64,000 nucleotides of DNA from Caldilineales bacterium (lineage in GTDB: Bacteria > Chloroflexota > Anaerolineae > J102): assembly GCA_024102915.1 (NCBI GenBank), contig JAGFJG010000053.1:1-64000 (forward strand), given 5' to 3'. A model generated the notes under the pieces. It had not been told where the DNA came from. It did no database searches and worked only from the letters and a program-made list of their open reading frames with translations. Position numbers and translations under genes: made by a program. Below are positions 24,823-28,786 of this stretch, piece after piece. Each line of letters starts with the position of its first letter. Positions within the stretch are counted from its first letter, which is position 1.

Positions 24823-24952
24823 TTGCTATGGCTGAAGTTTCCCTTCCAGCGCCGTGTGGTCGAATGACATCCTCTGTCAACAGCGCTTCCACCGACATGT
24901 CAATGCGGTTTTTCTAGCCGACTACAACCCCAGGTTTTCTTATCATCTCAGC

Positions 24953-26509
24953 ATGGCGATTGATTACAAGATAGCGGAAGGGACAAGCCAAGTGGATTTT
25001 GAGACCTGGCTGGCAGACAACTACGAGTTTGTAGTCGAAGCGCCCGGCGTTGATGCATGGCGCATATTCGATACCTTCGACTGGCTTCTTTTCAATCGCG
25101 CCATGATGCTGCGCCGCACAGGCAGTGAGTTCGCACTGGTCGCGCTGAATGGCGGAACCATCCGCAACTGCGAAATCCGCGGCGGTGATCCTGTGTTCGC
25201 CAGAGATTTCCCGGAAGGCGTACTACGCTCTGATCTGGCGCGCATCATCAACGAACGCGCTCTGTTCCCGCTGGCCGAAGTCTATGTGGAAGAAACCAGT
25301 TATCGCATTCTGGATGACGAGCAGAAAACGGTAGCAAGACTGATTCGTACCCAGGTTCGTGGCGAAGGTGATGAGTTTGGTGGAGCAGACTCGGCCAGCT
25401 TTTTAGGAGTGCGGACCTTGCGCGGCTATGAAAAGCATGCCCGCCGGTTGGCGAAGGAATTGGCGGCCTGGGGTGAGGGACTGAATTCGATGGACGAGGC
25501 GATCTTACTCAGCGCTTTGCGGATGGCAGGACAAACGCCCAATAGCTATTCCAGCCGCCTGGATGTGCGGTTGAAGCCCGAAATGCGGGCGGATGCGGCG
25601 GCTCGGGCCATCATGCAGCGGTTGTTGGAGACGATACGCGCCAATGAAGAGGGCATCAAAGCCGACACCGACATCGAGTTTCTCCACGATTATCGCATCG
25701 CCGTCCGCCGCACCCGTTCGGCGCTCAGCCTGATCAAGGGCGTCTTCTCGCCGGAAATGACCGACCATTTCAAGCAGGAATTTCGGACATTGGGCAAGTT
25801 CACCAACGATCTGCGTGACCTCGATGTGTATCTCCTGGCGGAGGAGGGCTATCGCGCTCAGTTGCCCGGCGCCATGAAAAACGACATCGCTCCGTTATTC
25901 GATTACCTGCGCGCCCATCGTGTCGTGGCGCTTGACGCCGTGACAGAAACCCTGGAATCGGAAGCCTATGCGCGTACGCTGGACGAATGGGCGGCCTTTC
26001 TGAACGAATCCACCGCGGTCGATAGTGCCGTGAATGCCTCGCAGCCTATCATCAGCCTGGCGCGCAAGCGCATTCGCAAGCAGTATCAAAGGATTGTGCA
26101 GGACGGGAGCTTCATCCTCAGCCACACGGAGGATGAACTCCTGCACGCACTGCGCATCGAGTGCAAGAAACTGCGTTATCTGCTCGAGTTTTTCGAAAGC
26201 CTGTTTCCGCCGCGAAAAATGGGCCAGTTGATCAAGCAACTGAAACGTTTGCAAGACAATTTGGGCGAGTTTAGCGATCTGACCGTGCAGCAGAATTACC
26301 TGCTGGCGGTGGCGGAGGCGTTGGACATCGACGAAGTGCTGGCGAGACGGGCACTGGTCTCGACCGGCTTTCTGGTGGAGACGATGGCGCGCCGCCAGCA
26401 GGAAGTGAAATCCGAGTTCGCCGGTACATTCACGAAATTCGCTTCGCCAGCACATCAACGACAGTTTCACCGTCTTTTTGGCAGCGGCAAAGGAAGGCGC
26501 AAAATATGA
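24953..26509 (+). CDS. CHAD-domain protein
   Basis: 518 residues. The C-terminal CHAD domain (about 215-510) has the conserved basic helices EFLHDYRIAVRRTRSAL and LHALRIECKKLRYLLEFFESLF, which bind polyphosphate in known members. The N-terminal 200 residues resemble a diverged CYTH/triphosphate-tunnel region, but the typical ExExK start is missing (MAIDYKIAEG). The ATG at 24953 is preferred because upstream codons are not protein-like. Its stop overlaps the ATG of the ParA-type gene (ATGA, 4 bases), so both are translated together. A link to polyphosphate or granule positioning is inference. Confidence 0.88.
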   Translation: MAIDYKIAEGTSQVDFETWLADNYEFVVEAPGVDAWRIFDTFDWLLFNRAMMLRRTGSEFALVALNGGTIRNCEIRGGDPVFARDFPEGVLRSDLARIINERALFPLAEVYVEETSYRILDDEQKTVARLIRTQVRGEGDEFGGADSASFLGVRTLRGYEKHARRLAKELAAWGEGLNSMDEAILLSALRMAGQTPNSYSSRLDVRLKPEMRADAAARAIMQRLLETIRANEEGIKADTDIEFLHDYRIAVRRTRSALSLIKGVFSPEMTDHFKQEFRTLGKFTNDLRDLDVYLLAEEGYRAQLPGAMKNDIAPLFDYLRAHRVVALDAVTETLESEAYARTLDEWAAFLNESTAVDSAVNASQPIISLARKRIRKQYQRIVQDGSFILSHTEDELLHALRIECKKLRYLLEFFESLFPPRKMGQLIKQLKRLQDNLGEFSDLTVQQNYLLAVAEALDIDEVLARRALVSTGFLVETMARRQQEVKSEFAGTFTKFASPAHQRQFHRLFGSGKGRRKI

Positions 26510-27255
26510 CGACGCTGGCGCTTTACAGCAACAAGGGCGGCGTGGGCAAGACGACTGCTGCGGTCAATCTCGCCTATCTGGCAGCGCAGAGCGGCTATAC
26601 TACGCTCCTCTGCGATCTTGACCCTCAGGCGGCTGCGACCTTTTATTTTCGCGTCAAACCCAAATTGAAGGCGGATGCCCGCGGGCTGGTCGGGGTCAGG
26701 AAAGAGCTTGAGCGCAGCATCAAGGCTTCTGATTACACCGGGCTGGATATCTTGCCAGCCGACTTCAGCCACCGCAACCTCGATATCACTTTCGACAGAA
26801 GTAAACGCAGCCGCCAGCGCCTGGGAAGCGCCCTGAAACGATTGCGACGGGAGTATGACCTCATCGTCCTCGATTGCCCGCCCACCATCAACATCCTGGC
26901 CGAGAACATCTTCAACGCCAGTGATCATTTGCTCGTACCCGTCATCCCCACTACGCTATCGGTACGCACCTTCGAACAACTCTTGTCCTTTCTGGCTGAG
27001 AATAAGCATGACTTGAAACAGGTTTCCGCCTTTTTCTCGATGGTCGATCGGCGCAAAAACCTGCATAAGCAAGTGATGTCTGAAATGTACGAACAGTTTT
27101 CCAATGTCATGCAAAACCCGATCCCCACGCTCTCACAAATCGAATTAATGGGGGTCTACCGCGAACCTGTTTCGGCATTTTCGCCCAGATCGGCGGCGGC
27201 GCGAGCTTACAAAGCGCTGTGGTCAGAATTGAAAGAAAAGAAGATGTTTTCCTAA
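26506..27255 (+). CDS. ParA/MinD-family P-loop ATPase
   Basis: 249 residues. The deviant Walker A motif KGGVGKTTAAVNLAYL (two lysines) sits at the N-terminus; Walker A' is LLCDLDPQAAAT and Walker B is LIVLDCPPTIN. Such ATPases form nucleoid- or membrane-bound dimers that position plasmids, chromosomes or cargo. No ParB gene follows; instead the gene is coupled to a CHAD protein by a 4-base overlap, suggesting an orphan, cargo-positioning type. About 190 bases separate it from the CpXC gene. Confidence 0.93.
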   Translation: MTTLALYSNKGGVGKTTAAVNLAYLAAQSGYTTLLCDLDPQAAATFYFRVKPKLKADARGLVGVRKELERSIKASDYTGLDILPADFSHRNLDITFDRSKRSRQRLGSALKRLRREYDLIVLDCPPTINILAENIFNASDHLLVPVIPTTLSVRTFEQLLSFLAENKHDLKQVSAFFSMVDRRKNLHKQVMSEMYEQFSNVMQNPIPTLSQIELMGVYREPVSAFSPRSAAARAYKALWSELKEKKMFS

Positions 27256-27448
27256 AATGACCATAGAGGACGCAGCGATCACGGAGGCTATCGAGAAAAT
27301 GAGCAAGCCGAGCCGTGATTTGTGAGTTGGATCGCTTCAAATTCTCTGTGCGCACAGCGCCGCTCACAGTGTCCACTGTGATAAATTACTTGATAACAAA
27401 ACCTGGCTCAATCGCCAGTCAAGACACAAATTCAAAGGCTATAGAACA

Positions 27449-28786
27449 ATGATTGCACCACAAACCATTTCGATCACCTGCCCGCATTGCCGGAACAGAT
27501 ACAACATGCCCGTATTCAGCGTCATCGACGTGGGCCAGACACCCGAACTTAAGCAGGTCGTGCTCGCCGGACAACTCAATGCCAGCCAGTGCCCAAACTG
27601 CCGCAATGTGAACTATATTGCCGCGCCCCTGCTTTATCATGATCCCGAACATGAATTCCTGGGCATCTTCCTGCCGACACAACTCAACATGTCCGAGTCT
27701 CAGCGTCAGAAGGCGATTGGCGACCTCACAAAAGCGTTGATGGATTCACTGCCCGCAGAAAAACGCCGCGGCTATATGCTCAACCCGCAACAGTTCCTCA
27801 CGCTCGACAGCCTGGTCGAGAAATTGCTGGGCTTTGAAGGCATCACCCCTGCGATGATCGAGGCCAGCCGCAAGAAGGTGGGGCTGGTCGATGAGTTGAT
27901 GCGGGTGAAGGATGACGGCATCTCCTTCAACCTCACCGTGAAGGAAAACGAAGCCCTGCTCGATGAGGAATTCTTCCGCCTGCTCAGCAATTTCATTCTG
28001 TCAGCCCAGGCCCAGGGTGACGAGCAATCCGCGCAGCAATTGGCTGACTTGCGCGAGAAGCTGCTGCCCATCACCACGACTGGACAGAAGATACTGAAGC
28101 AACGGCGCGCCGTGCAGAATTTGGGCAAAGAGCCAACCCGTGAGTCGGTGCTGGAAGCGATCATCAATGCCGATCTGGACGAGGTCGAGGCGATCGCCGT
28201 CGTTGTCGCCCCGGCGTTGGATTATCAGTTTTTCCAGAATCTGACCGACCGCATCGAAGCGGCCCCGGCGGAAGAGCGGCCGACATTGGAAGAAAAGCGT
28301 AAGCGCATTCTTGAGATCGTGGAGTCGATGCGTGCCGCCGATCAGCAGGCGGCGCAGCAGTCCAGCCAGATTATCCAGGAATTGCTTGGCGCTGAGGACA
28401 TGGCCGCCGCCGTCGATGAGATGTTGCCATACATCGACCAGACCGTCATGTCCCTGCTGTTGGCGAATATTCGGGATGCCGAGAAACGCGGCGCCCAGGC
28501 GGCAGTGCAACGTCTGACCGAGCTTTGGAGCCTGATTGTCGCCGCCACCGAAGAGGCGATGCCGCCGGAATTGCGGCTTCTCTACCAGATCACCGATGCC
28601 GAATATCCCGAAGGCACGCGTGCCGTGCTCAAGGAGCACAAGGCAGAGATTACGCCTGAATTCCTGGAGTTTCTCAAATCGAGCATCGACACCATTGAAC
28701 AACAGGACGACGGCGATCCGACGGAGCGCGCTGCCGTCGCTCGGCATCTGCGCAACGTGTTGACTCAGGCCCAGCTCGGGGTATGA
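27449..28786 (+). CDS. CpXC-domain protein
   Basis: 445 residues. The N-terminal CpXC domain (about 1-130) has the zinc-ribbon pairs CPHC (about residue 11) and CPNC (about 50). The rest is predicted helical and rich in Glu/Gln/Ala, with likely coiled coils (EEKRKRILEIVESMRAADQQ; LAGAED-type segments). Function is unknown; the family is frequent in Chloroflexota. AAAGG lies 9 bases before the ATG. It is in the same direction as the CHAD/ParA pair and the glycosyltransferase gene. Confidence 0.85.
   Translation: MIAPQTISITCPHCRNRYNMPVFSVIDVGQTPELKQVVLAGQLNASQCPNCRNVNYIAAPLLYHDPEHEFLGIFLPTQLNMSESQRQKAIGDLTKALMDSLPAEKRRGYMLNPQQFLTLDSLVEKLLGFEGITPAMIEASRKKVGLVDELMRVKDDGISFNLTVKENEALLDEEFFRLLSNFILSAQAQGDEQSAQQLADLREKLLPITTTGQKILKQRRAVQNLGKEPTRESVLEAIINADLDEVEAIAVVVAPALDYQFFQNLTDRIEAAPAEERPTLEEKRKRILEIVESMRAADQQAAQQSSQIIQELLGAEDMAAAVDEMLPYIDQTVMSLLLANIRDAEKRGAQAAVQRLTELWSLIVAATEEAMPPELRLLYQITDAEYPEGTRAVLKEHKAEITPEFLEFLKSSIDTIEQQDDGDPTERAAVARHLRNVLTQAQLGV

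Follow-up and report, generated by a model that had tools for sequence, protein, structure and literature searches.

We analyzed a 64,000-nucleotide (nt) stretch of DNA from a Caldilineales bacterium (Chloroflexota; assembly GCA_024102915.1, contig JAGFJG010000053.1, positions 1 to 64,000; hereafter the window), in which a gene for a CHAD protein directly precedes, and overlaps, a gene for a ParA-type ATPase. The same CHAD-before-ParA arrangement occurs in many unrelated bacteria, a finding that points to, but so far stops short of proving, a dedicated machine for placing polyphosphate granules and sharing them out. It is close to certain that CHAD and ParA are a conserved functional pair, and the cargo of this pair is likely to be polyphosphate. 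We favor, with some reserve, a role in which ParA positions or partitions polyphosphate granules and the CHAD protein is the cargo adaptor that replaces ParB. The elements of the pair in the window are as follows.

24953..26509, + strand: CHAD gene, 518 amino acids (aa), ATG at 24953; Pfam CHAD; proposed polyphosphate-binding cargo adaptor
24953..25546, + strand: N-terminal half of the CHAD protein, residues 1-198; CYTH / triphosphate-tunnel fold without ExExK
25607..26299, + strand: CHAD domain, residues 219-449; Pfam PF05235; contacts H245, R248, R252, R288, R408, Y409
26506..26509, + strand: ATGA overlap of the CHAD stop and the ParA start, 4 nt; also in 34 of 63 adjacent pairs
26506..27255, + strand: ParA-type ATPase of 249 aa with the deviant Walker A motif KGGVGKT; resembles Soj in sequence and fold

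Conservation of the CHAD-ParA pair

The pair was followed first within its own phylum and then beyond it. A search of 61 genomes (this one and 60 relatives) with the CHAD protein gave matches in 21, most of them to other CHADs. Two relatives have the arrangement seen here: in G005 (G and L numbers are our handles for genomes and loci) a CHAD 58% identical to ours has the same 4-nt overlap with ParA, and G055 keeps both the order and the overlap. In G038 the CHAD is 39% identical and no ParA lies in the fetched flanks. In a sample of 301 genomes of the phylum (ParA profile cut-off E 1e-40, with a match list that ends at 6e-84), the ParA subfamily is present in nine, and CHAD lies directly upstream in eight of them. 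Nine genomes have a CHAD match that reaches E 1e-50, a cut-off for orthologues that was picked after viewing the list, and these eight are all among them. The exceptions are G053, which has ParA without that CHAD adjacent, and G276, which has the CHAD but lacks this ParA.

Samples of other phyla were examined as well. ParA is present in 59 of 247 genomes of the Bacteroidota-side sample (the phylum of a Chitinophagales genome), with CHAD directly upstream at 24 of 30 loci, and in 8 of 246 genomes of the Actinomycetota-side sample (the phylum of a Solirubrobacter genome), with CHAD directly upstream at six of eight. Loci were fetched for 9/9 ParA-bearing genomes of our own phylum, 30/59 on the Bacteroidota side, 30/61 on the Pseudomonadota side and 8/8 on the Actinomycetota side. 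A scan of a wide genome collection, from which the best 80 of 574 ParA loci were taken, showed CHAD directly upstream of ParA in 61 of these 80 closest loci. Because they are the closest, they are biased to near relatives of this ParA, and the phylum samples are therefore the fairer test. Adding this genome and two relatives brings the count to 63 linked loci of 83, and most relatives keep the same order and strand. The record titles of the linked loci name Chloroflexi, Desulfobacterales, Actinomycetota, Dormiibacterota, Dadabacteria, KSB1, Gemmatimonadetes, Cerasicoccus, Pontiella and Pseudomonadota (Nitrosomonas, Methylomonas, Sedimenticola). No CHAD-ParA fusion protein was found among the open reading frames (ORFs) of the 83 loci.

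The two genes also occur together when they are apart. Thirteen of the 83 loci have at least 1500 nt of upstream sequence and no CHAD there; in 12 of these 13 genomes a full-length CHAD orthologue (E 1e-163 or better) is nevertheless encoded at another place, with no ParA next to it. Ten of the 13 genomes are Methylococcales, going by their record titles. The first-pass annotation of the window had asked for conservation of the pair as a check, and held that adjacency in this genome only would refute its idea. Adjacency is conserved across phyla, so that objection fails, and the co-occurrence extends to unlinked genes.

The annotated positions of all three genes, including the CpXC gene described below, agree with our ORF and Pfam checks, as does the reported four-base overlap, with CHAD ending at 26509 and the ATG of ParA at 26506. 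This ATGA overlap makes translational coupling of CHAD and ParA likely. An alternative, longer CHAD ORF starts with GTG at 24854; the alignment of relatives begins near the ATG at 24953. A scan for promoters and terminators gave counts no higher than the shuffled level, and nothing from it is used here.

The adaptor and the ATPase

The CHAD domain (Pfam PF05235, E 1.1e-59) has as its best solved profile match the CHAD protein of Chlorobium tepidum (E 4e-104), to which it is about 40% identical over the domain. The model of the protein beyond residue 198 superposes on 6qv7 with Z 37.4 and a root-mean-square deviation (rmsd) of 1.6 over 314 residues. C. tepidum CHAD binds polyphosphate with dissociation constants of 147 nM and 1.9 uM, a co-crystal with polyphosphate exists, and mutation of His253, Arg256, Arg260, Arg296 or Arg418/Tyr419 weakens the binding (PMC6537752). 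In the alignment these residues correspond to H245, R248, R252, R288, R408 and Y409 of our protein. All six are present, and they are kept in 60, 58, 60, 60, 58 and 60 of 60 CHADs, respectively. The 60 rows are this CHAD, L005 and 58 of the 61 other linked CHADs (59 ParA-linked in total); L108, L119 and L140 were excluded as truncated sequences. The earlier proposal that the CHAD protein is a polyphosphate binder is supported in that the contacts proven in C. tepidum are retained in full.

The CHAD of locus L168 matches the crystallized C. tepidum chain at 100% identity along 312 residues and immediately precedes ParA. Therefore, the co-crystallized CHAD domain itself comes from a CHAD-ParA arrangement. 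The wider stretch there reads ppk1, an ORF without a Pfam match, CHAD and parA, on one strand throughout; the ORF between ppk1 and CHAD encodes 273 aa (L187:10531-11352). The genome of our window also has a second CHAD protein on another contig (G000:C3:29543-30187; L002, L024), and its fetched flanks contain no ParA of this type.

The N-terminal half of the CHAD protein, which the first-pass annotation had called unusual, can be explained from the model (mean predicted local distance difference test score, pLDDT, 94). Residues 1-198 have no match in Pfam, the CYTH family included, and are only 12-13% identical in sequence to tunnel enzymes. In the predicted structure they align with these enzymes at VIA-align Z 13.5-14.2 over about 175 residues, for example with HpAC1/6yp4 (Z 14.2 over 177 residues) and AtTTM3 (Z 14.0 over 173), at rmsd 3.5-3.7, and full-length YgiF is also among the structural matches of the protein. 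The ExExK signature was found in the first 70 residues of none of the 60 aligned CHAD proteins, and D40, R102 and G158 are invariant in them despite this loss. With respect to the CYTH/TTM family, the tunnel fold is therefore predicted to be present and the catalytic signature is absent. We read this half as a degenerate CYTH/tunnel domain that would have lost its signature catalysis. It may serve as a contact for ParA or as an extra grip on phosphate. Separate short CYTH genes lie directly 3' of parA at L192:1040-1495 and L193:1024-1491, beside a CHAD with the degenerate tunnel domain.

The ATPase matches Pfam AAA_31 (E 3.4e-37). Among the matches listed it falls below all curated NCBIfam cut-offs, the best being 'ParA family partition ATPase' (98 bits vs 180). 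K10, K15, T16, D37 and D39 are kept in 54 of 54 ParAs, so that the signature lysine and conserved aspartates of the ParA/MinD family are in place. The alignment holds this ParA, 51 of the 62 other linked ParAs, L057 and L060. R49, R90, H187 and E213 are invariant in it and R219 is found in 53 of 54, and we regard these five residues as candidates for contact with the partner. R183, which we take to correspond to a DNA-binding arginine in Soj, occurs in 44 of 54. On a tree of 159 rows the subfamily stands apart from two outgroups (TtSoj and the 8ray ParA) with 100% support. CHAD linkage is spread across the whole subfamily, with 14 label changes on the tree vs 45.8 when labels are shuffled. This count, which takes no account of the direction of change, fits an old linkage that has been broken several times.

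The ATPase could instead be a fixed-site localization or assembly factor, like BcsQ, FlhG or ParC, that gathers CHAD and polyphosphate enzymes at a pole or at one site and does not space granules. The Foldseek matches of the model (pLDDT 92) are Soj-type folds at the top and include BcsQ and FleN/FlhG, and polar polyphosphate granules do occur in some bacteria (PMC13052382). However, the nearest solved relatives by sequence are the ParA 8ray (E 1.6e-37) and Soj proteins, not BcsQ or MinD, and the family cut-offs of BcsQ and MinD are not reached; we consider a fixed-site factor unlikely. The cargo could also be DNA, with CHAD-bound polyphosphate as a switch on ParA that would link the phosphate or energy state of the cell to the handling of its chromosome or to exit from the cell cycle. 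The Soj-like character of the ATPase, ParA copies without an adjoining CHAD, and the tie between polyphosphate and cell-cycle exit in Pseudomonas (PMC9239181) are in keeping with this. Against it, the subfamily is separate from the Soj/ParA outgroups, and the domain scan found no ParB domain among CHAD, ParA, the CpXC protein and nine flanking proteins (LURP-one-related, Bax1-I, hexapeptide, glycosyltransferase, CinA, metalloenzyme, LytR and two without a match). The earlier statement that ParB is missing holds for these 12 proteins, the rest of the genome being unscanned. We judge a DNA cargo to be distinctly improbable, and continue to favor polyphosphate granules as the object that ParA places.

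Polyphosphate genes and neighboring genes

Genes of polyphosphate metabolism accompany the pair. Of 60 hand-chosen genomes with the ParA or the CHAD orthologue, 51 have PPK1, this genome among them, and eight of the nine others have PPK2. G053, G038 and genomes in which the two genes are unlinked belong to this set. PPK1 is also found in 7 of 14 control genomes, and because the control set is only this large, the figure for the chosen genomes does not test for enrichment. The co-occurrence with polyphosphate kinase that the first-pass annotation proposed to check is thus seen, in this genome and in most of the others, as an observation and not as an enrichment.

In several lineages PPK1 adjoins the CHAD-ParA pair, and a Pfam scan of the neighbors identified, besides PPK1, SixA-type phosphatases and CYTH proteins (196 of 203 neighbor proteins scanned, 101 + 95; seven from L003, L004 and L006 were left out). 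A local search within the 61 CHAD-linked loci found PPK1 in 7, SixA in 16 and CYTH in 12; at least one of the three occurs in 25 of these 61 and in none of the other 19 of the 80 loci. These counts are rough because genes were called by a greedy longest-ORF rule. In Methylococcales with a relocated parA (L147, L149-L155), a SixA-type phosphatase gene stays close to CHAD. Although other phosphate-metabolism genes come and go near the pair, shared expression only, in which phosphate stress would switch on both proteins but each would have its own target, is very improbable, since many phyla share the ATGA overlap and the gene order, and genomes in which the genes lie apart still tend to have both.

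The first-pass annotation had grouped a third gene with the pair.

27449..28786, + strand: CpXC-domain protein, 445 aa; outside the unit; 193-nt gap, neighbor not conserved

Its CpXC domain is clear (Pfam PF14353, E 5.7e-23), and the C-terminal 300 residues have no family match. We dropped this gene from the unit because it lies 193 nt downstream and none of the other fetched loci yielded a relative of it. The earlier interpretation as a whole is partly supported: the pair is conserved, the polyphosphate-contact residues are retained and the genome has a polyphosphate kinase, and CpXC does not belong to the unit.

A proposed mechanism and its relation to known systems

We infer the following cycle. 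The CHAD protein would coat or tag polyphosphate by means of the basic pore of its CHAD domain, and ParA would sit on the nucleoid as an ATP-bound dimer. Where CHAD-tagged granules meet ParA, contact between the two proteins would stimulate the ATPase, so that ATP is hydrolyzed and ParA is released locally. Granules would consequently move apart and be divided between daughter cells, in a manner analogous to ParA-ParB or McdA-McdB. The broadest form of this proposal, a widespread and ancient ATP-driven system with an inorganic polymer as its cargo, in which a dedicated ParA spaces CHAD-tagged granules and the tunnel domain is a ParA contact or a second grip, seems to us evenly balanced between right and wrong.

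Several results weigh against a granule-placing role. Binding of polyphosphate alone does not distinguish a granule from soluble polyphosphate as the ligand. One Bacteroidota genome has ParA and no CHAD, the CHAD orthologue of L005 has no adjoining ParA, and G276 has no such ParA in its genome. The Pseudomonadota-side sample (the phylum of Nitrosomonas europaea) departs most. ParA is present in 61 of its 249 genomes and a CHAD orthologue (E 1e-60) in only six, and five of 30 ParA loci have CHAD directly upstream. An ATPase gene beside a conserved cargo-associated gene, as expected for ParA-type positioning, is thus what we find except at most loci of this sample (25/30). Eighteen of the CHAD-less loci form one clade on the ParA tree, and 10 of the 61 ParA genomes have no CHAD of any kind at E 1e-10. 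If every kind of CHAD is counted, 51 of 61 ParA genomes have one vs 75 of 188 others, a comparison that we do not press since the Fisher test ignores kinship. These solitary ParA copies may work with CHADs of other kinds or have a different cargo. In the 18-row solitary clade (within L191-L220), RnfH or pseudouridine synthase genes lie nearby in the cases checked.

The adaptor also departs from expectation at its ends. The ParA partners known so far mostly carry a basic N-terminal activating peptide (PMC12204374). CHAD has no conserved peptide of this kind (mean net charge 0.05 over the first 20 residues), and the C-terminal 15 residues are net basic in only 44 of 60 CHADs. On this check of terminal charge in the 60 CHADs, a conserved basic activating tail was rejected as a rule.

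Among described systems, McdA-McdB of carboxysomes is similar in that a ParA-type ATPase is connected to a cargo other than DNA by an adaptor that is not ParB (PMC13052382, PMC12204374). It differs in that the adaptor here is a CHAD protein without the conserved basic N-terminal peptide and the proposed cargo is polyphosphate, and McdA structures are more distant matches to our ParA than Soj is. ParABS (Soj-Spo0J) provides the nearest solved ATPase by fold and sequence, but here no ParB was found beside parA, and the branch is separate from TtSoj and the 8ray ParA. C. tepidum CHAD (PDB codes: 3e0s, 6qv7, 6qva) shares the CHAD-then-ParA order, the protein length and the conserved polyphosphate contacts; the crystallized part, however, is the CHAD half only, and 'ParA' as a whole word does not occur in the main text of that report (PMC6537752). 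A folD-ppk-parA-CHAD cluster with the same gene company has already been published for Acidithiobacillus, where it was treated as cAMP/polyphosphate signaling or in a study of copper resistance, with no positioning role in the available text (PMC6416229, PMC10892726). In Pseudomonas, AlgP is required for evenly spaced polyphosphate granules (PMC9239181); it is a histone H1-like DNA-binding protein and not an ATPase.

In the literature searched, as far as its text was available, the CHAD-ParA neighborhood is noted only for Acidithiobacillus, and a positioning of polyphosphate by ParA was found proposed nowhere, most subscription journals and bioRxiv preprints being outside the coverage. The words 'polyphosphate' and 'CHAD' are absent from the main text of a survey of ParA/MinD cargos (PMC10241942). 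A 2025 review describes the proteins that place polyphosphate granules in Caulobacter as unidentified, and the expenditure of ATP on placement as an open question (PMC13052382). For this question the pair offers concrete proteins and test organisms, C. tepidum and Nitrosomonas europaea, and an adaptor family that already has a polyphosphate-bound crystal structure. If the proposed role is true, an inorganic polymer would join the list of ParA cargos.

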